A stretch of DNA of 64,000 nt from Betaproteobacteria bacterium. Its GTDB lineage: Bacteria > Pseudomonadota > Gammaproteobacteria > Burkholderiales > CAIKXV01. Numbering within the stretch: position 1 is the first letter of the stretch; the number at the start of each line of letters is the position of its first letter. Location of the stretch: contig CANGYF010000005.1 of the NCBI GenBank assembly GCA_947458265.1, positions 186,001-250,000 of the forward strand, in the 5' to 3' direction. A program made the position numbers and the translations under genes. A model generated the notes under the pieces. That model made no database searches, was not told the origin of the DNA, and saw only the letters and a list, made by a program, of their open reading frames with translations. This document shows, piece after piece, positions 4,801 to 63,349 of the stretch.

Positions 4801-5819
4801 TCGGTGCGGATGCCGGCGGCCTTGAGCACCGGCTGCCAGGCAGTGACTTCCGCCGCGACGAACGCCGCGAACGCGGCCGAGGTCATCGGCCGCCGCAGGA
4901 TGCCCAGTTCGTCCATGCGTACCGAGATCGACGGCAAGGCAACCACCTCGCCCACGGTGCGGTGCAGGCTGTCGACCACGGACACCGGGATGCCCGCAGG
5001 CCCCGAGAGTCCAAGCCAGTTCTCGGCCACCAGCGACGGATAACCCAGTTCGCCCACGGCGGCGATCTCCGGTGCTGCAGCGACCCGCTTCACGGAGGTC
5101 ACGGCCAGGATGCGCAGCGCACCGCGCTGGGCATGCGGCAGGCTCTGCGGCAGCGTGTCGAAGGCCAGCGGGATCTGGTTGGCGAGCAGATCGACCAGCA
5201 TCGGTGCGGCGCCCTTGTACGGCACATGCGTCATGGACACCTTGAACTGGCGCTGGAACAGTTCGCCGACGACGTGGCCGACCGACCCGGCACCGCTCGA
5301 CCCGTAATTCAGCGTGCGCCCGCCGCGAGCCAGGGCGACCAGGTCCGCGACGCTCTTCGCGCCCAGTGCATTGGACACCGCGATCACGTTGGCCACCGCG
5401 CCGATCGAGGCGATGTGCGCGAAGTCCTTCACCGGGTCGTAGCGCACCGAGGGGTAGATGAACGGCGACACCGAGAACGGCGCCGTGTTCGACAGCACCA
5501 GCGTATGCCCATCCGGCTGCGCCTGAGCCACGATCGTCGCGCCGAGCGTGCCGCCCGCGCCCGGCCGATTGTCGACCACCAGGGTCTGGCCGACGCGCTC
5601 GGCCATCTGGCTGGAAATCAGGCGTGCGACAATGTCGCTGGCACCGCCAGGCGGGAAGGTCACCACGATGCGCACCGGGCGGGCCGGCCAGGCAGTGGCG
5701 GCCTGTACGGCGTGCGGCAGGACCGACGCCGCGACAGCGAAGCCGGCCACCACGCACCCCGGAAGCCATGACCGATCCCAGCGCAGAGGGAACCACGACC
5801 GATGTACCGACTGCTGCAT
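4797..5819 (-). CDS. Bug/TctC-family periplasmic solute-binding protein
   Basis: The 340-residue protein has an N-terminal signal region (hydrophobic core CVVAGFAVAASVLPHAVQA) followed by the Bug core WPARPVRIVVTFPPGGASD, VVDNRPGAGGTLGA, YDPVKDFAHIASIG and a MTHVPYKGAAP ligand-loop segment. It ends in an ATGA overlap with the BMP-family gene. The start at 5819 is chosen because GGAAGGTGG lies 4-7 nt upstream. This start codon lies inside the oppositely oriented DUF192 gene, so the two genes overlap head-to-head by 18 bp. Confidence 0.92.
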   Translation of the reverse strand: MQQSVHRSWFPLRWDRSWLPGCVVAGFAVAASVLPHAVQAATAWPARPVRIVVTFPPGGASDIVARLISSQMAERVGQTLVVDNRPGAGGTLGATIVAQAQPDGHTLVLSNTAPFSVSPFIYPSVRYDPVKDFAHIASIGAVANVIAVSNALGAKSVADLVALARGGRTLNYGSSGAGSVGHVVGELFQRQFKVSMTHVPYKGAAPMLVDLLANQIPLAFDTLPQSLPHAQRGALRILAVTSVKRVAAAPEIAAVGELGYPSLVAENWLGLSGPAGIPVSVVDSLHRTVGEVVALPSISVRMDELGILRRPMTSAAFAAFVAAEVTAWQPVLKAAGIRTE

Positions 5820-6272
5820 AACGCCACCTTCCATCTGTTTCTGATCTGGCTTGCGCTGGCCGGCAGCGCCTTCGCGCAGGGCCAGGGACAGCCGAAACTG
5901 CCGACCGTGCCACTGTCCATCGGCAAGCACATGGTCATCGCCGAGGTCGCCGCGAGTGCGGACACGCGCGAGCGAGGGCTCATGTTCCGCTACGAGATGA
6001 AGGACAACGAGGGCATGCTGTTCGTGTTCCCCGCTGCTCGGCAGCAGTCTTTCTGGATGAAGAATACCCCGCTACCGCTGTCGATTGCATTCATCGACGC
6101 AAAGGGCATGATCCTCAACATACGAGACATGATGCCATTCACCACCGATGGCCATCCGTCCGACGGCGAAGCCCTCTACGCGCTCGAGGTGAACCGCGGC
6201 TGGTTCGCGCAGCGCGGGATCAAGGCAGGCGACCGGGTGCAGGGCCTCGACAAGGCCGGCAAGGGCCACTGA
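5802..6272 (+). CDS. DUF192-family exported protein
   Basis: The 156-residue protein has a clear signal peptide (MYRLLHNATFHLFLIWLALAGSAFA, cleavage after AFA). The mature part carries the DUF192 pattern: VAASADTRERGLMFRYEM, EGMLFVFPAARQQSFWMKNT, LPLSIAFIDAKG and a C-terminal LEVNRGWFAQRGIKAGDRV. The family consists of small single-domain extracytoplasmic or periplasmic proteins of unknown function. The start overlaps the start region of the divergent Bug gene by 18 bp; AGAGGG sits about 11 nt upstream. Confidence 0.88.
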   Translation: MYRLLHNATFHLFLIWLALAGSAFAQGQGQPKLPTVPLSIGKHMVIAEVAASADTRERGLMFRYEMKDNEGMLFVFPAARQQSFWMKNTPLPLSIAFIDAKGMILNIRDMMPFTTDGHPSDGEALYALEVNRGWFAQRGIKAGDRVQGLDKAGKGH

Positions 6273-6339
6273 TCGAGGGCCACGCCGTGCGGCTGGCGCG
6301 GGGTTGATCGCGCACCAGCCGTGACTACCACCGAGGCGC

Positions 6340-7536
6340 TCAGCTGGCAGTAAAGCGCAGCCTGCGCTGGTCGATGCCGAACCGGTCGCACAGCCAGTCG
6401 AGCATCAGTTCCTGCCCGATCGTCGGGTTGTCGTGCTGGCAGTGCTCGGCTCCGGTCTCCTCGGCGGTCACCAGGCGCAGCGTGGCATCGATGCCCTTCG
6501 ACTTCGCATAGTCGTACACGGTGCGTGCGTTCTCGACCCCGAGCACGTCATGACCACCGTGGATGACCAGGTACGGGCAGCGCATCGAATCGAGCACGCC
6601 CTCGAGCACGAAGTCGCGCACGTATTCGGTCGCTTCGGCCATCGAGTTCGTGCCGGTGATCCATTTCATGTGCCCGGCAAGGCCATGGTCCTCGCCGCGC
6701 TCGCCGAAGCGCTGGTGCACGCTCCAGATCGCGTTGTGGGAGATCGCCGCGGCCAGGCGCGGCTCCTTCGCGCCGGCGCGCGCCGCGTAGTAGCCGCCGA
6801 GGCTCGATCCACTGACCGCGAGGCGCGCGGGATCGATGTCGCTGCGCGCCAGCAGCCAGTCGATGCACTTGCCCACCGGCACTTCATAGTCGTGCCGGGT
6901 GCGCAACCCGTGGCGGCGCAGCGCACCGCCCTGCCCCGGCCCGTCGACCAGCAGCACGGAGATGCCTCGTTGCAGCGCACCGTGGCCGGTCATGAACCAC
7001 AGCTCGTCCTTGAACGAATCGATGCCACCAAAGGAGATCAGCACCGGCTGCTTCGCCGCGCCGTGCGGCGAGCGGATGAAGTAGGCCGGCAGCGGCTTGC
7101 CCGGCTCGTAGGGAATGTCCACCACCTCTCCCGGCGGGTCGAGGTGGCGCAGGAACTGGTGCGAGCAGCGCTCGCCTTCGGTGAAGGTCTGCAGTCGGCG
7201 CGGATCGTCGCCCGCGAGCCAGAACTCGGCCTGCCGGTAGTAATTGGCCGCACGCAGCCAGCAGTTCATCGCGGTGCGCACATGTCCGTTCGCGGCAGCC
7301 TCGTCGCCGCGTGCATGGTTGCGCTTCGCGGTGACCGTCCATTCGGCGAACCAGCTCTCGGGATCGAGCGGCGTGATGCGGCTGGCGGTCTGGAAGCATT
7401 CGCTGACCGCACCGCCGCCCTCCTGTGTCTCGCCGAGTCCACGGCGGAATTGGTAGGAAAACCAGAAGTCCTCCGGCCACTGGTGCCAGCCGAAGGGTTC
7501 GTAATGGGGCCCTGCCTTCATGCCTGCTGCACTCAT
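6340..7536 (-). CDS. Alpha/beta-hydrolase with helical N-terminal domain (FrsA/DHPON hydrolase-like)
   Basis: The protein is 398 residues. The first ~160 residues form a helical region (WFAEWTVTAKRNHARG, AMNCWLRAANYYRQAEFWL), and the alpha/beta-hydrolase fold follows. The nucleophile elbow is VSGSSLGGYYAAR (Ser around residue 250). The acid and base are likely in VIHGGHDVLG and EHCQHDN. This layout is that of 2,6-dihydroxypseudooxynicotine hydrolase-like enzymes, which cleave C-C bonds, and of FrsA-type esterases. The natural substrate is not predictable. GGAAGG precedes the ATG at 7536. A 16-bp element shared with the next gene upstream lies at 7553-7568. Confidence 0.83.
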   Translation of the reverse strand: MSAAGMKAGPHYEPFGWHQWPEDFWFSYQFRRGLGETQEGGGAVSECFQTASRITPLDPESWFAEWTVTAKRNHARGDEAAANGHVRTAMNCWLRAANYYRQAEFWLAGDDPRRLQTFTEGERCSHQFLRHLDPPGEVVDIPYEPGKPLPAYFIRSPHGAAKQPVLISFGGIDSFKDELWFMTGHGALQRGISVLLVDGPGQGGALRRHGLRTRHDYEVPVGKCIDWLLARSDIDPARLAVSGSSLGGYYAARAGAKEPRLAAAISHNAIWSVHQRFGERGEDHGLAGHMKWITGTNSMAEATEYVRDFVLEGVLDSMRCPYLVIHGGHDVLGVENARTVYDYAKSKGIDATLRLVTAEETGAEHCQHDNPTIGQELMLDWLCDRFGIDQRRLRFTAS

Positions 7537-7552
7537 CGATCGCCTTCCGCGC

Positions 7553-7568
7553 TCAGTCAGTACGAAAG
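7553..7568. repeat. 16-bp direct repeat, copy 1
   Basis: The sequence TCAGTCAGTACGAAAG occurs here and exactly at 8585-8600. Both copies are in the same orientation and end 13-16 nt before the start codon of a leftward gene (alpha/beta-hydrolase and ybiB-like). This suggests a shared 5'-UTR or operator element. Confidence 0.6.
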
Positions 7569-7587
7569 GCACGAGGGTAGCACCGCT

Positions 7588-8571
7588 TCAGGCGGCCGCG
7601 AGGCTCCCGGTCTCGACTGCCACCAGGGCCTTCGCCTGGTTCATGTCGGCGCTGTATCCGGTGGCGTAGAGGCAGCAGGCCAGCTGGTTGATCAGCGGCA
7701 TCGGCAGCGGCACCTTGCCGGCCAGCGCGCCGCGGATCCACTGCGCGGTGACCGACGGATCTGACGAACGCGGCACGCTGCCCAGCGCACGCGTCGATTC
7801 CGCCTCGGCCTCGAACAGTACGCTGCGCATGCCGCCGTCGAACAGCTCGATGCGCGGGCGACGGTGCGGGTTCGCGAACGGCTCCCCGCCCATGCCTTCG
7901 AGCAGCATCGCGACCTCGCCCGACGCAAGGAAGTACTGCTGGAGCTGGGAGACGCGGCCGGGATGGCTGGCACCGATCACGCGCAGGCAGCCATCCGGGA
8001 AAGGCGACAGCAGCCTGGCCATCAGGTGCGCGACGCTGCACACGCCCAGCCGCGCCTGCAGCGACATCAGCGCCGCCAGCCCGGGTGCGAGCGCACCGCC
8101 CGGCATGAACACGATGCCGCGCGTGGCGAGTTCTTGCTGCGCCTGCTCGGTGCCGATGCTCGGCATGATGCCCAGCTCGCGCAGCACGTAGGCGGCGGAG
8201 GCGCTGCCCTCGCGATTGAGCGTGCCATGAATCAGCACCGGGACATGGAATCGTTGCAGCAGGAGCGCGAGCAGCGGCAGCAGGTTCGGCTCGTCGCTGG
8301 AACCGCCATAGCTGGGCAGGACGACCGGCAGCACCGACTCGTGCACCCGCTCCAGGCGCGCGACACGCTGTGCCAGCGCACGTCCGAAGCCCAGGAGTTC
8401 GCTCGCCGATTCGCCCTTCTGATACAGCGTGGTGAGTATCGCGCCCAGTTCCAGCTCGGGCACCCCGCCGTCGAGCATCGCGCCGAACAGGCTCTCGGCC
8501 TCCCACTCGGCCATGTCGCGCGGCAGGTCCGCTTCGCCGGCCATCTGCTTCAACAGTTCGCTGTAGTTCAT
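7588..8571 (-). CDS. ybiB: YbiB/TrpD2-like glycosyltransferase family 3 protein
   Basis: The protein is 327 residues. It has the helical N-terminal domain of the anthranilate phosphoribosyltransferase fold (MAEWEAESLFGAMLDGGVPELELGAILTTL) and the alpha/beta domain. It lacks the usual PRPP-binding GTGGD motif; the corresponding region reads VLPSYGGSSDEPNLLPLLALLL, as in the YbiB (TrpD2) group. E. coli YbiB binds nucleic acids rather than making phosphoribosyl anthranilate and is SOS-linked. That role is known for the family, not shown here. The start is at 8571; the longer in-frame upstream extension is low-quality. Confidence 0.82.
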   Translation of the reverse strand: MNYSELLKQMAGEADLPRDMAEWEAESLFGAMLDGGVPELELGAILTTLYQKGESASELLGFGRALAQRVARLERVHESVLPVVLPSYGGSSDEPNLLPLLALLLQRFHVPVLIHGTLNREGSASAAYVLRELGIMPSIGTEQAQQELATRGIVFMPGGALAPGLAALMSLQARLGVCSVAHLMARLLSPFPDGCLRVIGASHPGRVSQLQQYFLASGEVAMLLEGMGGEPFANPHRRPRIELFDGGMRSVLFEAEAESTRALGSVPRSSDPSVTAQWIRGALAGKVPLPMPLINQLACCLYATGYSADMNQAKALVAVETGSLAAA

Positions 8572-8950
8572 GTCGACCACTTGATCAGTCAGTACGAAAG
8601 ATCCGGATGACCCGGACGGGGTGGCATCGGCACCGGTTCGACGACAGGGAAGGTCGTCCGCGGTGGCACGCCATTGCGCCGCGGTGCGTCGCAATCTTCG
8701 TTCCCCGAGCCGGTCCGACCAGGGGTGCAGTGCTCCTCCTGCTTCATGCGGCATAGTGCTTGCAAAGGCCATGCCAAGGCGCAGGCCATGCGCGACGGCC
8801 GGTTGCCCGGGCTGCGCCGGGACGGTGGCCCGCCGCGGGGCCGGCGCCGGGCGCCAGACGCCGATCAACGCATGCCGCTGGTGCACCTGCGCGGTGCCGT
8901 GCCCGTTCGAGGTGCACAGCCGTTCGCAGCCGACTGCAGGCCGGGGACGG
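8572..8950. other. Gap with no convincing gene
   Basis: No ORF here has a credible start, ribosome-binding site or recognisable family. It holds the second copy of the 16-bp direct repeat (8585-8600) and presumably the promoter of the ybiB-like gene. Confidence 0.6.
8585..8600. repeat. 16-bp direct repeat, copy 2
   Basis: Exact copy of TCAGTCAGTACGAAAG (see 7553-7568), 13 nt before the ybiB-like start codon. In both places the minus-strand sequence reads CTTTCGTACTGACTGA just upstream of the ATG. Confidence 0.6.
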
Positions 8951-10192
8951 TCAGAACCGTTCGGGGCTGTAGGGCGCTGGATCGATGCCGGGCGGCCGTC
9001 CGGCAACGAGGTCGGCGAGCAGCCGGCCAGTCGGCGCGCCGCCGCAGAGCCCGGTATGGCCGTGGCCGAAGGCGAAGAAGACGTTGCCGAACTGCCGCGA
9101 GCGCCCGATGACCGGCAGCGAATCGGGCGTGCAGGGTCGATGGCCCATCCAGGTCGTCATGTCGTCGAGCCGTGCACCCGGATACATCCGCTTCGTGTGA
9201 CGCACCAGTGCATCGATGCGCGCCTGCGTCGGCGGCGCATCGAGGCCGGCGATCTCGACCGTGCCGGCATTGCGCAGTCCGTCGGCCATCGGCGTGGTGA
9301 AGAACTTGAACTCGCCGGACATCACCGGCGTACGCGGAGAGATGCCGGGTTCGGGGAAATGCACGTGGTAGCCGCGCTGCGATTCCAGCGGCACGTGCGT
9401 GCCGAGCCGTGCCGCCAGCCGGGCGGAGAACACGCCCGCCGCCAGCACCACGCGGTCGACCGGCAGCGGCCCGCCCGTAGTCGAAAGCGATGCCACCCGG
9501 CCATCGGTGAGCTCGAAGCCCGACACCTCCCGCTGCTGGTACGAGCCACCGGAGGCGATGAAGTGGTCGAACAGCCGACGGGTCAGCCAGAGCGGGTTCG
9601 CGACGTAGCCCTGCTCGGGCAGCAGCACGCCGCGCACGTAGATCGGCGCAAGGTCGGGGTCGTGCTCGCGGATCTGCGCCGCATCCAGTTCGACCACCTT
9701 GACGCCACGATCGCGGCGCAGTTGCCAGGCGAGCGCATCGGACCGGAAGGCCGCCTCGGTCTCGTACACCGCGATATAGCCCGACTGGTTGATCAGGTCG
9801 GTACAGCCGGCCGCGTGGGTAAGCGTGCGATACGCATCGAAGGTCTGTCCGAGCAGCGGACGCAGCGCGTCGGCGATCTCCTCGACCCGATTGCGCCGGC
9901 TGGAGCGGATGAAGCGCCACAGCCAGGGCGCCGCCTGCGGCAGGTAGCCCCACTTGACCGACAGCGGCGCAGCCGGGTCGGTAAGCCACTGGGGCACCTT
10001 CTTGAGCACCCCCGGCATGCCGACCGGCACCACCGACCCCGGGCTCAGGATGCCGGCATTGCCCATCGACGTGAACTCGCCCGGCGGGCCGCGGTCGACC
10101 AGCGTCACTGCATGGCCGTCGCGCTGCAGGTAGCTCGCCACCGCGACGCCGACGATGCCGGCGCCGATCACCGTGATGCCCGGGGCGCTCAT
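8951..10192 (-). CDS. FAD-dependent D-amino-acid dehydrogenase-like oxidoreductase (DadA family)
   Basis: The 413-residue protein starts with a dinucleotide-binding motif (ITVIGAGIVGVAVASYLQRDG) and then shows DadA-family features: the FTSMGNAGILSPGSVVPVGMPG loop, GYVANPLWLTRRL, VVLAAGVFSARLA, and the C-terminal DSLPVIGRS ... FGHGHTGLCGGAPTGRLLADL segment, which holds the FAD. DadA enzymes deaminate D-amino acids oxidatively and pass electrons to quinone at the inner membrane. Substrate preference is open. Its ATG overlaps the stop of the DUF2007 gene upstream (ATGA), so the two are co-translated. Confidence 0.85.
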   Translation of the reverse strand: MSAPGITVIGAGIVGVAVASYLQRDGHAVTLVDRGPPGEFTSMGNAGILSPGSVVPVGMPGVLKKVPQWLTDPAAPLSVKWGYLPQAAPWLWRFIRSSRRNRVEEIADALRPLLGQTFDAYRTLTHAAGCTDLINQSGYIAVYETEAAFRSDALAWQLRRDRGVKVVELDAAQIREHDPDLAPIYVRGVLLPEQGYVANPLWLTRRLFDHFIASGGSYQQREVSGFELTDGRVASLSTTGGPLPVDRVVLAAGVFSARLAARLGTHVPLESQRGYHVHFPEPGISPRTPVMSGEFKFFTTPMADGLRNAGTVEIAGLDAPPTQARIDALVRHTKRMYPGARLDDMTTWMGHRPCTPDSLPVIGRSRQFGNVFFAFGHGHTGLCGGAPTGRLLADLVAGRPPGIDPAPYSPERF

Positions 10193-16897: not shown

Positions 16898-17254
16898 ATG
16901 ACGACACCCACTCCCCCCGCAAAACCCGGCCGCTGCGGCTACCACGACATCGGCGGCCTCACCGCCGGCGAGATCGACCCCGCCGAGGAACCGATCGAGT
17001 TCTGGCACAAGCAGAACGAGGCGATGCGCGGGCTGCTCGGCGATCCGCTGCGCCGGATGCTCACGGTCGACGAGGTCCGGCGTGCCTTCGAGAGCTTCGG
17101 CGAGGAGAAGTACAACACCCTGTCCTTCTACGAACGCCGCCTCGAGGCGATGCTCGACATCCTCACCGAGAAGGGCCTGATCGACCGCGAAGCATTCATG
17201 CAGCGGGTCGAGGCCGGCCTGAAGCACCGCGCCGCCGGCGCGTCCACCGACTGA
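16898..17254 (+). CDS. Nitrile hydratase-family beta subunit, N-terminal-half protein (thiocyanate hydrolase beta-like)
   Basis: The 118-residue protein covers only the N-terminal helical half of a nitrile hydratase beta subunit: YHDIGGLTAGEIDPAEEPIEFWHKQ matches the family opening (GIHDVGGM in typical beta), and a helical RRMLTVDEVRRAFESFGEE ... YERRLEAMLDILTEKGLID follows. The SH3-like C-terminal half is encoded separately in the next gene. This split is the hallmark of thiocyanate hydrolase (scnB-scnA-scnC) and of three-subunit nitrile hydratases such as toyocamycin nitrile hydratase. It opens a three-gene operon. The start is supported by the conserved N-terminal motif and the -10 box; SD is absent. 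Confidence 0.83.
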   Translation: MTTPTPPAKPGRCGYHDIGGLTAGEIDPAEEPIEFWHKQNEAMRGLLGDPLRRMLTVDEVRRAFESFGEEKYNTLSFYERRLEAMLDILTEKGLIDREAFMQRVEAGLKHRAAGASTD

Positions 17255-17267
17255 TCCCGGGGTACCG

Positions 17268-17576
17268 ATGACTGCGCCTGCCGCCCTCAATACCGGCCAC
17301 CGCTTCTCGGCGGGCGACCGGGTACGCGTGCTCGACCTGCCGAAGTCCGGCCACATGCGCACGCCCTGGTACATCCGCGAGAAGGTGGGCGTCGTCACCG
17401 AATGGACCGGCAAGGTGCTGAACCCGGAAGACCTCGCCTATGGCCGCTGCAGCGGGCCTGCCGTGAACGGCTATCGCGTGGTGTTCGACCAGCGCCATAT
17501 CTGGCCCGACTACCATGGACCGGAACACGACAAGCTGCACATCGAGGTCTACGAGCACTGGCTCGAGAAAGCGTGA
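17268..17576 (+). CDS. Nitrile hydratase-family beta subunit, C-terminal SH3-like half (thiocyanate hydrolase alpha-like)
   Basis: The 102-residue protein matches the SH3-like C-terminal domain of nitrile hydratase beta: FSAGDRVRVLDLPKSGHMRTPWYIREKVGVV near residue 12, and GYRVVFDQRHIW near residue 65. It lies 13 nt after the N-terminal-half gene. The order N-half, C-half, alpha is the same as scnB-scnA-scnC. Its stop is separated from the following ATG by 5 nt. Confidence 0.85.
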   Translation: MTAPAALNTGHRFSAGDRVRVLDLPKSGHMRTPWYIREKVGVVTEWTGKVLNPEDLAYGRCSGPAVNGYRVVFDQRHIWPDYHGPEHDKLHIEVYEHWLEKA

Positions 17577-17581
17577 ACGAC

Positions 17582-18250
17582 ATGCCGCACGATCATCCAC
17601 ATCCGCATGACCACGACCACGATCACGCCCACCCCGAAGGTTTCGACCCGCATGCCCCGGCGCCCGACTTCGGAGACGAACGGTCGCGCTGGTACGAGGT
17701 CGCCTCCGACGTGATGCGCGACATGCTGATCGAGCAGAACGTGTTCTCCGCGCGCGAAGTGCGCAAGCAGATCGAGCTGATGGAAAGCAAGACCATCCAG
17801 CTCGGCGGCAAGCTGATCGCCCGCGCCTGGGTCGACCCGGAGTTCCGCAAGACCCTGCTGAAGGACGGCAAGGCAGCGGCCGCCTCGCTCGGCATCCCGG
17901 TCACCGAGGCCTCGCTGACCGTGGTCGAGGACACGCCTGCAGTGCGCAACGTGATCGTCTGCACGCTGTGCTCGTGCTACCCGCGCTCGCTGCTCGGCCA
18001 GCCGCCGGCCTGGTACCGCAACAAGGCCTACCGGTCGCGCGTGGTGCGCGAGCCGCGCAAGGTGCTGGCCGAGTTCGGCTCGGTCGTACCCGACGATGTC
18101 GAGGTGCATGTGCACGACTCGAACGCAGACCTGCGCTTCATCGTGCTGCCGATGCGCCCGGCGGGTACCGAACACCTGGGCGAGGCAGAGCTCGCGGCCA
18201 TGGTCACGCGCGACAGCCTGATCGGCGTGGCGCCTCCGCGCGCAGCCTGA
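17582..18250 (+). CDS. Nitrile hydratase-family alpha subunit (thiocyanate hydrolase gamma-like), cobalt-type metal site
   Basis: The protein is 222 residues. The metal-binding motif V-C-T-L-C-S-C-Y-P is complete, with Cys at 127, 130 and 132. Thr at the second position is typical of cobalt enzymes; iron enzymes have Ser. These cysteines are normally oxidised to sulfenic and sulfinic acids. The first 18 residues are very His/Asp-rich (MPHDHPHPHDHDHDHAHP), which could bind cobalt or nickel. The following segment reads PRSLLGQPPAWY rather than the PWPVLG-PPAWY of the second cluster. GTG at 17573 is an alternative start that would overlap the preceding stop (GTGA). It may hydrate nitriles or hydrolyse thiocyanate. 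Confidence 0.88.
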   Translation: MPHDHPHPHDHDHDHAHPEGFDPHAPAPDFGDERSRWYEVASDVMRDMLIEQNVFSAREVRKQIELMESKTIQLGGKLIARAWVDPEFRKTLLKDGKAAAASLGIPVTEASLTVVEDTPAVRNVIVCTLCSCYPRSLLGQPPAWYRNKAYRSRVVREPRKVLAEFGSVVPDDVEVHVHDSNADLRFIVLPMRPAGTEHLGEAELAAMVTRDSLIGVAPPRAA

Positions 18251-18566
18251 TCCGGCTGCTGCGCCCCGCTTCGGTGCGTCCGGCGCACCGGGACGCAACG
18301 CCGGGACGCCAACACCGTACGGACAGCCCGCTCCAGCGGGCCTGACGGATGGCACGGGACTTGCACGTGCGAGTGTCGTGACCTGTCCTGCCGCCCGTCT
18401 TCATACGATCCATGCCGCGCGATCGCGGCGACGGACGCATGCGCCTGCCCGCCTGCTGTGGGACGGCATGGTCCCAAAGGCCAGGGTGCAACCCGACTGA
18501 ATCGCAGCACGGTGCCGCGATGCATCAGCGGCGTACTCGACGATGGATCTTCAGGAGCAACCGACC
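18251..18566. other. Gap between alpha-subunit gene and Bug gene
   Basis: No gene recognised. The gap should contain the promoter for the Bug gene; the only supportable element is AGGAG at 18553-18557 before a GTG start. Confidence 0.4.
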
Positions 18567-19565
18567 GTGACACTCAGGCAGCCCCCCACAATGGCATCGA
18601 GCGCACTGATCGGCGGCCTCGCTGGCCTGGCCCTGGCGGCTGCCGTCCCGACTGCGTCCGCGCAGGACTTCCCCAACCGGCCGGTGCGCATGGTCGTGCC
18701 GTTCGGCGCCGGTGGTGTCTCGGACATCATCGGGCGCACGCTGGCCAGCCGGATGCAGGAGAGCCTCGGGCAACCGATCATCATCGACAACCGCGGGGGC
18801 GCAGGCGGCTCGATCGGCAGCGACATCGTCGCCAAGGCACAGCCCGATGGCCACACCATCCTGCTGGGCAGCAACGGCACGCATGCGATCGTGCCCTATC
18901 TCTACAAGAAGCTGCCGTACGACCCGCTGAAGGACTTCACGCCGATCGGCATGGTCGCGATCACCCCGACCGTGCTGGCGGTGAACCCGGAACTGCCGGT
19001 GAAGTCGATCAAGGAACTGATCGCCTACGGCAAGGCGAAACCAGGCGCGCTGTCGTTCGGCTCCTCCGGCATCGGCAGCACGTCGCACCTGGCCGGCGAG
19101 ATGCTCGGCGCACTTGGCGGCGTGTCGCTCACCCACGTGCCGTACAAGAGCGCATCGGCCGCCTATCCCGATGTGTTCGGCGGCCGGGTGCCGATGATCT
19201 TCGACAGCGTGCTGTCGATGACCCCTCACCTGAAGGCCGGCAAGCTGCGCCCGCTGGCGGTGACCACGCCGAAACGGGTGGCTACCCTGCCCGACCTGCC
19301 GACGATGGCCGAGGCTGGCCTGCCCGGCTATGCGATCACCCTGTGGATCGCAGTGTTCGGCCCGGCCGGCATGCCGCCCGCGGTCACCGCGCGCCTGAAC
19401 AAGGAGATCAACCGCGTGCTGACGATGGCCGAGGTACGCGATCAGATGGCTGCCCAGGGCTCGGAGGTTGCGCCCGGCGCGCCGGCCGACCTGCTGGCCG
19501 CCGTGAAGACAGACCTGAAGCGGATGGGCGAGATCGTCAAGGCCGCGAAGATCCAGCCGGAATGA
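18567..19565 (+). CDS. Bug/TctC-family periplasmic solute-binding protein
   Basis: The 332-residue product starts with a short N-terminus, a signal peptide ending at TASA, and the Bug core (FPNRPVRMVVPFGAGGVSDII, IIIDNRGGAGGSIGS, YDPLKDFTPIGMVA, LTHVPYKSASAAYPDVFGGRVP). I chose GTG at 18567 because AGGAG is 9 nt upstream; an ATG at 18543 in the same frame has no SD. It follows the split nitrile hydratase-family genes and may share their substrate context. Confidence 0.9.
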   Translation: MTLRQPPTMASSALIGGLAGLALAAAVPTASAQDFPNRPVRMVVPFGAGGVSDIIGRTLASRMQESLGQPIIIDNRGGAGGSIGSDIVAKAQPDGHTILLGSNGTHAIVPYLYKKLPYDPLKDFTPIGMVAITPTVLAVNPELPVKSIKELIAYGKAKPGALSFGSSGIGSTSHLAGEMLGALGGVSLTHVPYKSASAAYPDVFGGRVPMIFDSVLSMTPHLKAGKLRPLAVTTPKRVATLPDLPTMAEAGLPGYAITLWIAVFGPAGMPPAVTARLNKEINRVLTMAEVRDQMAAQGSEVAPGAPADLLAAVKTDLKRMGEIVKAAKIQPE

Positions 19566-58846: not shown

Positions 58847-59004
58847 CCGGGCGCATCCGCAGGAGCCGGTTCGACCGCTGGACGGCACTACAGATGTGCC
58901 GCCACCGGCCGATAAGGATGTATCTTCGTTCTGCTTCGATCCATCGCCAGAACCCTGCGGTCACCGACGGCGCGCAAGAACGGCTTCCCCACCCAGGAGT
59001 GAAC

Positions 59005-59157
59005 ATGGGCATGCCCGGCTCGTTGAACGTGCAACGCCTGCAAGGCAGCCTTCCCGAAACGCCTGTGGCTGTCTTCGGGCATCCGGTCGCCGCCTCCATC
59101 GCCGTGCTGTCCGAAGTCGCAGGCCTCGTGGGAGGCGGCGCGACATGGCGCGGGTGA
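59005..59157 (+). CDS. Small ORF with strong SD, upstream of the GGDEF/EAL gene
   Basis: The 50-residue product is MGMPGSLNVQRL... to GGGATWRG with no recognised domain. AGGAG lies 5 nt before its ATG, a better site than most nearby genes. Its stop overlaps the downstream gene start by 13 nt, so it may be a leader peptide or coupling ORF. Coding status is uncertain. Confidence 0.45.
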   Translation: MGMPGSLNVQRLQGSLPETPVAVFGHPVAASIAVLSEVAGLVGGGATWRG

Positions 59158-61634
59158 CCCGCAGGGTCACCGAAGCCGATGCGCAGGCCGCCCGGCAGCC
59201 GCTGCCAGTCACGGTCGTCCATCTGGACGCGCAGGGACGCATCCTCGGCGTGCTCGAAGACCGGATGGGACTCGTGCGCTCGGGCTGCCTGGATGGACAG
59301 ACGCCCTTCTCGCATTCGCTGACCACGCAACACAGCGCCCTCTGGGAGATGACCCAGTGGCCCGCCCTGTGCGCCAGCGGGCAGCTCGACGAGGCGCTGC
59401 TGGAGTTCCACGGTGGCGACGGGGAGCCGATAGCCGTTGTGTCCTACTGGCGCCGCGACACGGAGGCCGCAACGCCCCGCGTGGTGGGCATGCTGGCGCC
59501 CGGCAGCGAGCGTCAGCAGCTGATGCTGCAGTTGCGCGGCTCCCAGGAAAGCCTGGGCGCGATGCCTGCGGCGGTGCTCCAGATCGGCACCACGGAGACG
59601 GGCCAACTCGTGCTGCCCTACGCCGTCGGTGCGCTGCGGGAACTGGCAGGTGTCAGCTGCTCCATGGTGTGCCGCGCCCCGGAAACACTGCTCGATGCGC
59701 TCTCCCCCGAGAGCCGCGACCGGCTGATGCAGCGACTGCTGCACACGCCGCCGACACTGCAGGCCTTCACCGAAGTGATCGCGCCGCTGCACCAGCCGGA
59801 TCGACGGCTGCAACTGTCGGCGAGCCGGCCGCTCGATGCCAGTATCTGGCACTGCGTGGTCACGGACGTGAGCGACCGGGAGCAGTTGCAGGCCGAACTC
59901 AGGCGTCTGGCCACCACCGACGACCTGACGCGGCTGGCCAACCGGCGGGCCCTGCTGTCCGCGCTTGCAGAGCGGCTGGCCGTGACCCGGCAACTGGCGA
60001 TCTGCTACATGGATTGCGACCGGTTCAAGCAGATCAACGACAGCCTGGGCCATTCGGTCGGCGATTCGCTGCTGCAGCAGGTGGCGATACGCCTGCGCAG
60101 CCAGCTGTGCTCGGCCGACGGAATCGTGAGCCTGGGGTACGACCTCGAGGATCCGGTCGCAGCACGGCTGGGCGGGGACGAGTTCGTCGTGCTCGCCACC
60201 GGCATCGACAGCGCGGCAGCCGCCGGCGCCCTGGCGCAGCGGCTCTTGGACGCCGCCGCCCAGCCATACGTGATCGGTGGGGTCGAACTCGTCATCACGG
60301 TCAGCATGGGGGTGGCGATCCCCGGTGCCGACAGCACGCCGGAGCAGTTGCTGCGGGATGCGGACACCGCCATGTACGAAGCCAAGCGGTTGGGGCGAGG
60401 CAGATGGGCCCTGTTCGAACCGCAGATGCAGCACAGCGCAGCCGGCGCCCTGTCGCTCGAACTCGATCTTCGACAGGCGCTTGCCGCCGGCCACATCCGG
60501 GCGGCGTTCCAGCCCATCGTCGAGATCGACTCGGGCCGCATCCGGGGATTCGAGGCGCTCGCGCGCTGGCGCCACCCCGTGCGCGGGGAGGTGAGTCCGG
60601 CGCAGTTCATCGCGGTGGCCGAGGAGAGCGGCCAGATCGGCGTGCTTGGCCAGGCCATCCTGGAGCAGGCCTGCCAGGCGCTCGCGGGGTGGCGACGCGC
60701 GGGACTGGCCGGACAGTTGCGCATGTCCGTCAACCTGAGCCGGGCACAGTTGCTGGCCGAGGACCTGCCCCGGCGCATCGACGAGGTGCTGAAGCGCTGC
60801 GGGCTGCCCGCCGACGCCCTGCAGCTCGAAGTGACCGAGACCATGGCCATGGAGATCAGCGGCCTGGGACAGGCCCTGGAGCGGCTTCGCACGCTGGGCG
60901 TGCGCCTGTCGCTCGACGACTTCGGCACCGGGCACTCATCGCTGGCGGCGCTGCACCAGCTGCCGGTGCAGCAGGTCAAGATCGACCGCAGCTTCGTGAA
61001 CGAGCTCGGGGAAAGTCCCTACCACCGCGCCGTGGTGCAGGCGGCACTGCACGTGGCGGCCGCCCTCAGGCTCGATGTCGTCGCGGAAGGTGTCGAGACC
61101 GTCGAGCAGGCCGCGGCGCTCGAGGGGCTGGGATGCCGGCTGGCCCAGGGCTGGTTGTACGCGAAAGCCGTGGAGGCGGACCAGGCCATGGCCCTGCTCG
61201 ACCGTTGCCTGCTTCCCGCCGCGGCACAGGCGGCACAGCCGCAACCTGTCGCCGCGCCCGACTACCAGGTCATCATCACCGATGCGCAGGGCCTGACCAC
61301 CCATGTGAATGCCGCCTTCACGCGCAGCACCGGCTACAGCATCGAGGACATGCTGGGCATGACGCCCGGTGCCGTGCTGCAGGGGCCGCTGTCCTCGGCG
61401 GAGGTCATCGCGTCGATGCGGCGCAGCGTGCAGGCCTGCGAGCCCGCCCGCGGACTGGAGATCGTGAACTATCGCAAGGACGGCACGCCCTTCCTGGCGT
61501 CGATCGACATCGAACCGGTGATACTCGACGGCAAGCTGTGCGCGTTCATGAGCGTCCAGTCCGAAATGACCGAGCCCTCGCTCGCCCGTCAGCGGCTGGC
61601 GAAACTGCGGCAGGGCAAGGGCGCGGCCGCGTGA
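59145..61634 (+). CDS. GGDEF-EAL diguanylate cyclase/phosphodiesterase with C-terminal PAS
   Basis: The protein is 829 residues from ATG 59145 (GGAGG 9 nt upstream). A poorly characterised sensory region (residues 1-250) precedes a GGDEF domain whose motif RLGGDEFVVL is intact. No RxxD product-inhibition site lies in front of it. The EAL domain is complete: FEALARWRHP, EVTETMAM, SLDDFGTGHSS, KIDRSFV, VVAEGVET. A PAS domain (VIITDAQGLTTHVNAAFTRSTGYSIEDMLG) ends the protein; it resembles LOV folds but the flavin Cys motif reads TPGAVLQG. It makes or breaks cyclic di-GMP in the cytoplasm. Confidence 0.9.
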   Translation: MARVTRRVTEADAQAARQPLPVTVVHLDAQGRILGVLEDRMGLVRSGCLDGQTPFSHSLTTQHSALWEMTQWPALCASGQLDEALLEFHGGDGEPIAVVSYWRRDTEAATPRVVGMLAPGSERQQLMLQLRGSQESLGAMPAAVLQIGTTETGQLVLPYAVGALRELAGVSCSMVCRAPETLLDALSPESRDRLMQRLLHTPPTLQAFTEVIAPLHQPDRRLQLSASRPLDASIWHCVVTDVSDREQLQAELRRLATTDDLTRLANRRALLSALAERLAVTRQLAICYMDCDRFKQINDSLGHSVGDSLLQQVAIRLRSQLCSADGIVSLGYDLEDPVAARLGGDEFVVLATGIDSAAAAGALAQRLLDAAAQPYVIGGVELVITVSMGVAIPGADSTPEQLLRDADTAMYEAKRLGRGRWALFEPQMQHSAAGALSLELDLRQALAAGHIRAAFQPIVEIDSGRIRGFEALARWRHPVRGEVSPAQFIAVAEESGQIGVLGQAILEQACQALAGWRRAGLAGQLRMSVNLSRAQLLAEDLPRRIDEVLKRCGLPADALQLEVTETMAMEISGLGQALERLRTLGVRLSLDDFGTGHSSLAALHQLPVQQVKIDRSFVNELGESPYHRAVVQAALHVAAALRLDVVAEGVETVEQAAALEGLGCRLAQGWLYAKAVEADQAMALLDRCLLPAAAQAAQPQPVAAPDYQVIITDAQGLTTHVNAAFTRSTGYSIEDMLGMTPGAVLQGPLSSAEVIASMRRSVQACEPARGLEIVNYRKDGTPFLASIDIEPVILDGKLCAFMSVQSEMTEPSLARQRLAKLRQGKGAAA

Positions 61635-61678: not shown

Positions 61679-62332
61679 ATGAGCGACGACCATCACCACC
61701 CACACGATCACGACCACGGCAGCGACAGCGCCCACGACCGCCCGCTGTCCGGCCCTGCACTGCGCGTGAAGGCACTGGAATCGCTGCTCGCCGAGAAGGG
61801 TCTGATCGACCCGAAGACGCTCGACGAGATCGTCGATACCTACGAGCACCGGGTCGGCCCGCGCAACGGCGCGCGCATCGTCGCCCGCGCCTGGACCGAT
61901 CCCGCCTACCGGCAACGGCTGCTGGCCAACGCGACCGAGGCGATCGCCGAGTTCGGTTTCATCGAGTCGCACGCCGAGGACATGGTCGCGGTGGAGAACA
62001 CGCCGCAGGTGCGCAACCTGGTGGTGTGCACGCTGTGCTCCTGCTACCCATGGCCGGTGCTCGGCCTGCCCCCCGCCTGGTACAAGTCGGATGCCTACCG
62101 CGCCCGTGCGGTGCTCGACCCGCGCGGCGTGCTGAAGGCGTTCGGCCAGGACATCCCGGAGGACATCGAGGTCCGGGTCTGGGATTCCACCGCCGAGATG
62201 CGCTATCTGGTGCTGCCCGAACGCCCTGCTGGCACCGAGGGCTGGAACGAGGAGCAGCTGGCGTCGATCGTCACCCGTGACTCGATGGTCGGCGTCGGCA
62301 CGGTCATCCTTCCTGCGGGTGCTGGCGCATGA
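61679..62332 (+). CDS. nthA: Cobalt-type nitrile hydratase alpha subunit
   Basis: The 217-residue protein has the complete metal motif [10 protein letters not shown] with Cys at 117, 120 and 122. The surroundings ([18 protein letters not shown]) are as in typical cobalt enzymes. Residues 1-20 are rich in His and Asp. It converts nitriles to amides. It overlaps the beta gene by ATGA. The order alpha, beta, activator is usual for cobalt-type operons. Confidence 0.95.
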
Positions 62333-62988
62333 ACAGCATCCACGACATGGGCGGCATGCACGGCATGGGCCCACTGGTCATCGAGCATGATGACCACGTC
62401 TTCCATGAATACTGGCACGGGCGCGTGTTCGCGCTGCGCATGGCCTGCGCCTTCCATCGCCGCTACAACGGCGACATGGGACGCTACGCGCGGGAACGGA
62501 TGCCACCGGCGGAGTTCCTCGCGGCGAGCTACTACGAGCGGGCGCTGTACGCGCTGGAGCGGGTGCTCGTGGAGAGCGGCATGATCGACGAGGCGGAACT
62601 GGCCGACGGCCGGCCGGCATCGCCCGACCGTGCCTCTGCCAACCTGCGGCCGGAGCAGGTCGCTGCCATCGTGCGTACCCGGCGCCGCACGCGGATGGAC
62701 GAGGTCGAGGTCGCGCCCAGGTTCAGCGTCGGCGATGCGGTGCTCACCCGCAACTTCCAGCCGGAAGGCCATACCCGCCTTCCGCGCTACGCCCGCGGCC
62801 GGCGCGGCGTGGTGCAGCGCGACCATGGCGTGTTCTCGTTTGCCGACAGCAATGCGATGACCCGCGACCGCAAGCCGCAGCATATGTACAGCGTGCGCTT
62901 CGCGGCGACCGAACTCTGGGGCGAGGCGGCTGCGCCGCGCGACACCGTCTGCCTGGACCTCTGGGATGACTATCTCCTGCCCGCCTGA
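62329..62988 (+). CDS. nthB: Nitrile hydratase beta subunit (full length)
   Basis: The 219-residue protein contains both halves of the beta subunit. [15 protein letters not shown] begins the helical domain; [31 protein letters not shown] near 144 starts the SH3-like domain and [13 protein letters not shown] follows. It is intact, unlike the split version at 16898-17576. Confidence 0.94.
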
Positions 62989-63349
62989 GGCGGACCGTAC
63001 CGTCGACCTGACCGCCCTGCCCGCCCTTCCGCGCGACGATGCAGGCCCGGTGTTCCGGGCGCCCTGGGAGGCGCAGGCGTTCGCGATGACCCTGGAACTG
63101 CATCGCCGCGGTGTATTCACCTGGCCCGAGTGGGCCGGCACGCTGGCCGAAGAGATCGCCCGGGCAAAGGCGCACGATGCGTGGGACGACGGCAGCCACT
63201 ACTACGAACGCTGGCTGGCTGCCCTCGAAGCCCTGGTCGCGCGCAAGCAGGTGGTCGGCACCGCCGACCTGTCCCAGCGGGTCGACGAGTGGGACCGTGC
63301 GGCCCGGGCAACGCCGCACGGCCAGCCGGTCTTGCTGCCGCAGCGCTGA
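62966..63349 (+). CDS. Nitrile hydratase activator (accessory) protein
   Basis: The 127-residue protein resembles the N-terminal half of beta, as activator proteins (P14K/NhlE type) do: VFRAPWEAQAFAMTLELHRRGVFTWPEWAGTLAEEI and HYYERWLAALEALVARKQVV. These assist cobalt insertion and cysteine oxidation. The start ATG 62966 lies inside the beta gene end (23-nt overlap). Confidence 0.86.
   Translation: MTISCPPEADRTVDLTALPALPRDDAGPVFRAPWEAQAFAMTLELHRRGVFTWPEWAGTLAEEIARAKAHDAWDDGSHYYERWLAALEALVARKQVVGTADLSQRVDEWDRAARATPHGQPVLLPQR

Follow-up and report, generated by a model that had tools for sequence, protein, structure and literature searches.

The locus at positions 16898-18250 of the stretch analysed here (the window, 64,000 nucleotides of contig CANGYF010000005.1, positions 186,001 to 250,000, from the Betaproteobacteria assembly GCA_947458265.1) raises the question of whether three small genes related to nitrile hydratase (NHase) encode a thiocyanate hydrolase (SCNase), as a sequence-only reading had proposed they might, or another enzyme of the same family. 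We consider it probable that this target cluster encodes a three-subunit NHase-family enzyme from a branch marked by arginine or lysine at one pocket position (the Arg/Lys branch), which would carry cobalt, process nitriles and mature without an activator gene. The three genes are consecutive on the plus strand. They encode the free-standing N-terminal half of the NHase beta subunit (beta-N, 16898-17254, 118 amino acids; PF21006 NHase_beta_N, 40.5 bits against a cut-off of 21.5), its free-standing C-terminal half (beta-C, 17268-17576, 102 amino acids; PF02211 NHase_beta_C, 71.1 bits, cut-off 27.7) and the alpha, or metal, subunit (from a GTG at 17573 or an ATG at 17582 to 18250, ~222 amino acids; PF02979 NHase_alpha, 246.2 bits, cut-off 27.2); the stop codon of beta-C overlaps the possible GTG start of alpha. 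All three Pfam domains score above gathering, which places the set in the NHase superfamily at the Pfam level, and the split beta and the SCNase-like order of N-half, C-half and alpha are as the sequence-only reading described them. The metal motif CTLCSC is read from both DNA and translation at 17960-17977 (plus strand). Two arginines do not vary among the branch members aligned: R61 of beta-N (31 of 31), whose counterpart in solved NHase beta subunits is the FDEFR arginine, and R31 of beta-C (28 of 28); we take the two to be the catalytic arginine pair, and mutants of beta-R52 and beta-R157 occur among PDB titles.

The target is a genuine gene set and not a group of chance open reading frames, because an alpha orthologue (84-96% identity) is present in nine of the ten other genomes of the genus examined, the tenth (G931) being 83% complete, and because the ratio of nonsynonymous to synonymous substitution rates (dN/dS) against five orthologous loci lies between 0.01 and 0.20 in the 14 of 15 subunit pairs that yielded a value. 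Several of the dS values behind these ratios are near or past saturation, and the 15th pair (beta-N of L039) is cut by a contig end.

The proposal that the cluster could be a thiocyanate hydrolase did not survive comparison with SCNases, and we rejected the assignment on four grounds: the model score, the typical residues, the missing downstream gene and the tree. The target alpha reached 212.8 bits with the SCNase model TIGR03887, 79 bits short of the cut-off of 291.45, while nine of the 369 genomes scanned in the class have a gene over this cut-off, at 381-397 bits; one of these nine loci (L014) matches the solved Thiobacillus thioparus SCNase gamma with 507 bits over 238 residues. Eight of the nine loci, all that hold both beta halves, encode these separately (L017 begins at beta-C), and in eight of nine a further beta-N-like, activator-like gene, presumably the one named P15K, lies downstream, the ninth ending 223 bases past alpha. 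No such gene lies beside the target. When we defined SCNase-typical columns as those kept in at least 13 of 14 SCNases and in at most 10% of 32 comparison rows (20 from the fused/Trp side and 12 from the Microvirga/Streptomyces clade), the target alpha had the typical residue in 6 of the 43 columns and lacked it in 37. For every subunit, profiles built from the branch also gave the best cobalt-type NHase a higher score than SCNase (alpha, 269.2 versus 235.3 bits; beta-C, 78.7 versus 61.1; beta-N, 64.1 versus 59.4). Single matches to solved structures were closer together, beta-C giving 46.6 bits with an NHase (1v29_B) and 44.6 with SCNase alpha (2dd4_A). An AlphaFold2 model of the target alpha (predicted local distance difference test, pLDDT, 88) resembled NHase alphas (Z 24.7-26.8) and SCNase gamma (Z 24.9-25.1), a predicted fold that does not discriminate between the two. 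No SoxB over cut-off was found in the genome. As an aside on the SCNases, two plasmid-borne members, from Roseomonas and Azospirillum (L151 and L152), carry beta-N and beta-C as one fused gene; both lie near TauE-type exporters and L151 also near CbtAB.

Two quick trees with Shimodaira-Hasegawa-like approximate likelihood ratio (SH-aLRT) support were computed, one from alpha alone (110 rows, 15 SCNases) and one from the three subunits (107 rows, 14 SCNases, three of the 110 being dropped with beta-N missing or too far); many of their inner forks are weak. In both, the SCNases form a single clade at 100% and the target lies outside it, and the three-subunit tree groups the target at 99% in a nine-row clade with Beijerinckia, Aquabacter, Ectothiorhodospiraceae and others. 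The sequence-only reading had taken a tree position firmly inside the ordinary NHases as counting against its proposal. The target was not found there: it falls on the SCNase side of the family's main division, yet outside the SCNase clade, and on these trees it may possibly be a sister of SCNase. Joining the target to the Streptomyces/Microvirga clade was likewise not rejected with alpha alone by the approximately unbiased (AU) test (p 0.381).

The difference just after the metal motif (PRSLLG in the target, PWPVLG in the ordinary alpha), which the same reading had pointed out, is real and meaningful. In aligned sequences the differing arginine codon (17984-17986, plus strand) lines up with SCNase gamma Arg136 and with Pseudonocardia thermophila NHase alpha Trp116, and exactly this residue was swapped in deposited mutants, as seen from the structure titles 3vyg (SCNase R136W) and 3vyh (NHase W116R); in the literature library searched, we found no paper on 3VYG or 3VYH, nor on thiocyanate hydrolase with Arg136. 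We surveyed the position in 235 distinct alphas. Arginine was present in 15 of 15 SCNases and in 127 of the 132 alphas from non-SCNase, activator-free split-beta clusters, the others having lysine (4) or leucine (1); three of these 132 loci end before any beta gene and two lack beta-N only, from a similar cause, and the sole leucine belongs to a Streptomyces locus (L251) on the fused side of the tree. The 80 fused-beta clusters had Trp (70), Phe (5), His (2), Tyr (2) or Thr (1) and never a basic residue, and clusters of the order alpha-betaN-betaC-activator had Trp in eight of eight. Since Arg or Lys occupies the position in 131 of 132 non-SCNase, activator-free split alphas and in none of 88 with a fused beta or a linked activator, the arginine is a marker of the branch and not of SCNase, and as a lone SCNase mark it was rejected, being common to the whole non-SCNase split branch. 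The four lysines need three changes on the tree, at least two by starred branches. On the tree, joint changes of split beta and Arg are so few that the association of the two cannot serve as an independent test of function.

The Arg/Lys branch is not rare. Among 72 classified distinct NHase alphas in 200 genomes of the window's order, 36 belong to it versus 4 SCNases (74 rows, less one fragment and one identical to L039); six genomes of the genus itself supply 17 of the 36, and outside the genus the count is 19 of 51. It also accounts for 7 of 49 further classified alphas in 398 genomes of the phylum (64 rows, less 6 shared with the order set and 9 left unfetched). One 80-locus set in the survey is the best 80 of 588 and therefore leans to the branch; the family searches alone (121 classified) gave 43 split Arg/Lys clusters, 4 SCNases, 71 fused clusters and 3 split clusters with activator. 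On these sequences the branch seems to contain SCNase and, for the most part, other uncharacterised enzymes. The survey also brought up eight alpha-betaN-betaC-activator loci that carry Trp and fall on the family's classical side (L025, L026, L027, L030, L035, L123, L129 and L182), four fused-beta alphas with CTLCSCTA[FY]T and no activator within the fetched stretch (L219, L225, L226 and L227), and a split Arg-type cluster directly after an asnB gene on a Planktothrix plasmid (L156).

The genome holds four NHase alphas, one ordinary and three in split-beta clusters (on contigs C5, the target, C1 and C7). TIGR03889, the activator model, was over cut-off only at 62966, in agreement with the earlier statement that the target has no activator of its own; the accompanying suggestion that the activator at 62966 might serve both clusters was not borne out. 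In a TIGR03889 search of 31 selected genomes, matches over cut-off occurred in 10 of 10 with a Trp-type cluster (of the alpha-betaN-betaC-activator kind in G546, and judged from alpha positions in G928, G929, G930 and G932) and in 0 of 19 with split clusters only, two of which are just 83-84% complete. Sub-cut-off matches in four of the 19 fell on the cluster's own beta-N, and two further genomes were set apart, G558 for an incomplete further NHase alpha accompanied by an activator match and G479 for a fused cluster with CTLCSCT. Orthologues of the alphas of all three split clusters are present in two split-only genomes, G509 (97% complete) and G469 (84%), contig ends cutting the C1-type cluster of the former and the target-type cluster of the latter. 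Separate beta-N, beta-C and alpha genes thus persist in genomes without an activator gene. Because none of the 19 split-only genomes has an activator over cut-off, the split enzymes appear not to need the 62966 gene, and we rejected a dependence of the target on it; the same persistence fits, without proving, a role of beta-N as chaperone. A crude count of histidines in the alpha tails gave no separation of activator-free from activator-linked alphas (median 7 versus 6).

How the target enzyme might work can be outlined by homology. Its alpha CTLCSC would bind low-spin Co(III), with the second and third cysteines oxidised; beta-N and beta-C would jointly supply two arginines that hold the oxidised cysteines; and a substrate with a C-N triple bond would bind the metal and be hydrated to the amide. 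The free beta-N is probably its own metal chaperone, as reported in the available passages on AnhD of Streptomyces canus, a metal and subunit-swapping chaperone (PMC7329996). Cobalt, cysteine oxidation, a nitrile substrate and self-maturation are thus what we infer for the target. Because arginine takes the place of the usual tryptophan, the pocket would be more polar and positive, and a small polar or anionic nitrile would be expected instead of a hydrophobic one.

The ordinary operon, at 61679-63349, is indeed present as the sequence-only reading had it, each of its three plus-strand genes being over its NCBIfam cut-off: alpha (61679-62332; TIGR01323, 308.5 bits, cut-off 249.85), an unsplit beta (62329-62988; TIGR03888, 204 bits, cut-off 152.2) and the activator (62966-63349; TIGR03889, 90 bits, cut-off 46). 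In the genome as a whole (G000, 4.01 Mb, 33 contigs, 97% complete), the three split alphas share 51-59% identity with one another and 46-50% with the ordinary alpha. Directly upstream of the ordinary operon lies a gene for a GGDEF-EAL-PAS protein (58896-61634), and in two sibling genomes the ordinary alpha has CSLCSCYPW in place of CTLCSCYPW (L130 and L131). The second extra split cluster, on contig C1 (L002/L005), is followed by a binding-protein-like gene without a Pfam match at E 1e-5, and a sibling genome has a fourth split cluster (L190, contig C4 of G380) that is close to groundwater Betaproteobacteria sequences and not to the other three.

Downstream of the target lies a conserved gene for a Bug/TctC solute-binding protein (18543-19565, plus strand; PF03401, 235.7 bits), to which a related gene corresponds in nine of nine sibling loci examined (76-96% identical in eight, 53% in L277). 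The adjacency may be chance, because the 4.0 Mb genome holds at least 150 Bug/TctC genes (150 of 270 candidates scored). The region is syntenic in the genus as far as the contigs reach (from a patatin gene to an MBL gene in L271, L274 and L275), so that the Rieske neighbour, present in eight of nine sibling loci with L039 as the exception because it begins within the cluster, does not argue for a functional link; the target's own neighbours, Rieske oxygenase and Bug genes, are syntenic and uninformative. The C7 paralogue stands in a tight one-strand run (L006, ~5800-9833, minus strand) of amidase, Bug, beta-N, beta-C and alpha, then moeA, in which the amidase stop overlaps the Bug start and 4 bases separate Bug from beta-N. 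At the C7-type locus of ten other genus genomes, the Bug-betaN linkage is kept in 10 of 10 and the upstream amidase in 7 of 10 (11 of 11 and 8 of 11 with the own genome included); the C7 amidase is one of 22 amidase-family matches in the genome. The gene order would most naturally be read as a pathway in which a nitrile is converted to the amide and then to the acid. Organic acids are the usual ligands of Bug proteins, and this, with the pocket arginine, suggests a charged nitrile as substrate. Across 90 split-cluster stretches (three from the own genome), conserved neighbours gave nothing informative for function. The commonest non-subunit neighbours, aconitase-like genes (16 loci) and secreted thioredoxin-like genes (13 loci), both named from inspection of their sequences, seem to represent one fixed site of Rhodobacteraceae; Bug genes follow (11 loci), and one further cluster resembles an opposite-strand open reading frame.

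Several observations weigh against our reading of the target as a nitrile-processing member of the Arg/Lys branch. By NCBIfam it is no classical NHase either: besides having no activator gene of its own, it is below cut-off in alpha (TIGR01323, 233.8 versus 249.85 bits, 16 short) and in both beta halves (TIGR03888, 36.1 and 62.3 bits, cut-off 152.2). Its 6 of 43 SCNase-typical residues lie at the upper end of the branch, whose other members average 8% (3-4 of 43) with a best of 7. With the branch profiles, some NHases scored below SCNase, namely the iron-type alphas (206-216 versus 235.3 bits), 1v29 in beta-N (51.5 versus 59.4) and P. thermophila in beta-C (54.2 versus 61.1). The AlphaFold2 model of beta-N (pLDDT 86) is slightly nearer SCNase beta (TMq 0.71-0.74) than NHase beta (at most 0.67), with SCNase beta 2dd4_B as the top Foldseek row (TMq 0.71, E 0.013), all at E values of 0.01-0.4 and none below 0.001. 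A single clade of target and SCNase was not rejected by the AU test (p 0.67 for alpha, 0.397 for three subunits), the constrained tree gaining 11.7 log units over the free quick search with alpha and losing 7.8 with three subunits. The idea of a charged substrate draws on a single residue together with Bug neighbours, a very common kind of gene in this genome; no cobalt transporter or amidase is among the neighbours identified beside the target, and in sibling genomes the C7-type amidase lies up to ~1.9 kb from Bug. The S. canus lineage differs from that of the target, so its biochemistry transfers by analogy only, and the Microvirga flocculans NHase would belong to the branch by inference from gene order and a congener only.

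How far these points favour other explanations depends on the explanation. A functional, divergent ScnBAC relative converting thiocyanate to carbonyl sulfide and ammonia would account for the shared gene order, the arginine at the Arg136 position, the position on the SCNase side of the family, the unrejected joint clade, the beta-N model and the six residues; we nonetheless think it quite unlikely, given the shortfall against a model that genuine loci of the class pass by a wide score, the 37 absent residues and downstream gene, an arginine common to the whole branch and, weakly, the lack of SoxB, which use of thiocyanate as a nitrogen source would not need. An ordinary hydratase of neutral nitriles, its arginine without a role in substrate choice and its split a neutral fission, is unlikely, even if the Streptomyces three-subunit lineage hydrates acetamiprid without Arg (available passages of PMC7329996) and split beta also occurs with Trp and activator in eight distinct loci: a positive charge in 131 of 131 branch alphas suggests a use for charge, which could still be structural. 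Reliance on the activator at 62966, the genome's only one over cut-off, is very improbable when split-only genomes do without one and their four weak matches are their own beta-N. A decayed or non-functional duplicate, an idea that three paralogous split clusters beside an ordinary one in a single genome might invite, is the most improbable of all, with open frames, low dN/dS and orthologues across the genus. Going beyond the three-subunit NHase-family enzyme that we favour, it is conceivable, though doubtful, that the whole Arg/Lys branch is a large unrecognised class for anionic C-N triple-bond substrates (carboxylated nitriles supplied via Bug proteins), in which each enzyme's own beta-N assembles the cobalt centre, SCNase is one specialised offshoot and this genus has expanded the class to three or four enzymes of different substrates.

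Three-subunit, activator-free NHases have already been published, from S. canus and Microvirga, and the target adds a member; the available passages of PMC7329996 and PMC11573777 report that such enzymes hydrate organic nitriles. Among characterised enzymes, SCNase and presumably the Microvirga NHase could be linked to the Arg/Lys branch. The NHase-tree passages of PMC10098168 and PMC3323583 make no mention of the split branch, and the available parts of PMC6504805 and PMC4009401 hold nothing decisive on it. Six annotated plasmid records with such clusters name the genes nitrile hydratase or SH3-like protein, and split Arg/Lys clusters can be mistaken by a reader for thiocyanate hydrolase.

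Compared with known systems, the target shares with ScnB-ScnA-ScnC of T. thioparus (2dd4) the split beta, the order beta-N, beta-C, alpha and, at CTLCSCYPR, the arginine of the Arg136 position; it differs in the model score, the typical residues, its place outside the clade and the absence of a downstream activator-like gene. AnhD-AnhE-AnhA of S. canus, in the available passages of PMC7329996 a three-subunit NHase without activator that hydrates acetamiprid, has the same gene order. We located its type through the published primers in 392 Streptomyces genomes: the anhD primer matched within 3 mismatches in 101 and exactly in 7, the remaining three primers matched less well (best in L270, with 1, 1 and 5 mismatches), and the 10 primer-matched loci read (7 exact, 3 with one mismatch) all encode a beta-N beginning MARINDV and an alpha with YP[LIV]RLLG. 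This type is another lineage than the target, with L251 on the fused-beta side of the tree, and the published primers point away from two other Streptomyces loci (L148 and L049), which were rejected as the S. canus enzyme. In the M. flocculans plasmid NHase, by the available passages of PMC11573777, PMC13243292 and PMC8278588, two beta genes flank alpha and there is no activator. Its congener Microvirga terrae (L149) is like the target in the split beta, the lack of activator and the pocket arginine, shared by L149 and nine clade mates (L043, L045, L060, L061, L097, L150, L155, L157 and L159); it differs in the order betaC-alpha-betaN, in forming a clade of its own next to SCNase at 84% and in the cobalt transporter, aquaporin or CbtAB that lies beside four members. 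Toyocamycin NHase (ToyJKL) of Streptomyces rimosus, compared by description only, likewise has three subunits (available passages of PMC7329996). Classical cobalt-type NHases, represented by P. thermophila 1ire and by the genome's own cluster at 61679, have the fold (Z 26.7 to 1ire) and metal motif of the target, from which they differ by a fused beta, a separate activator and a tryptophan in the pocket.

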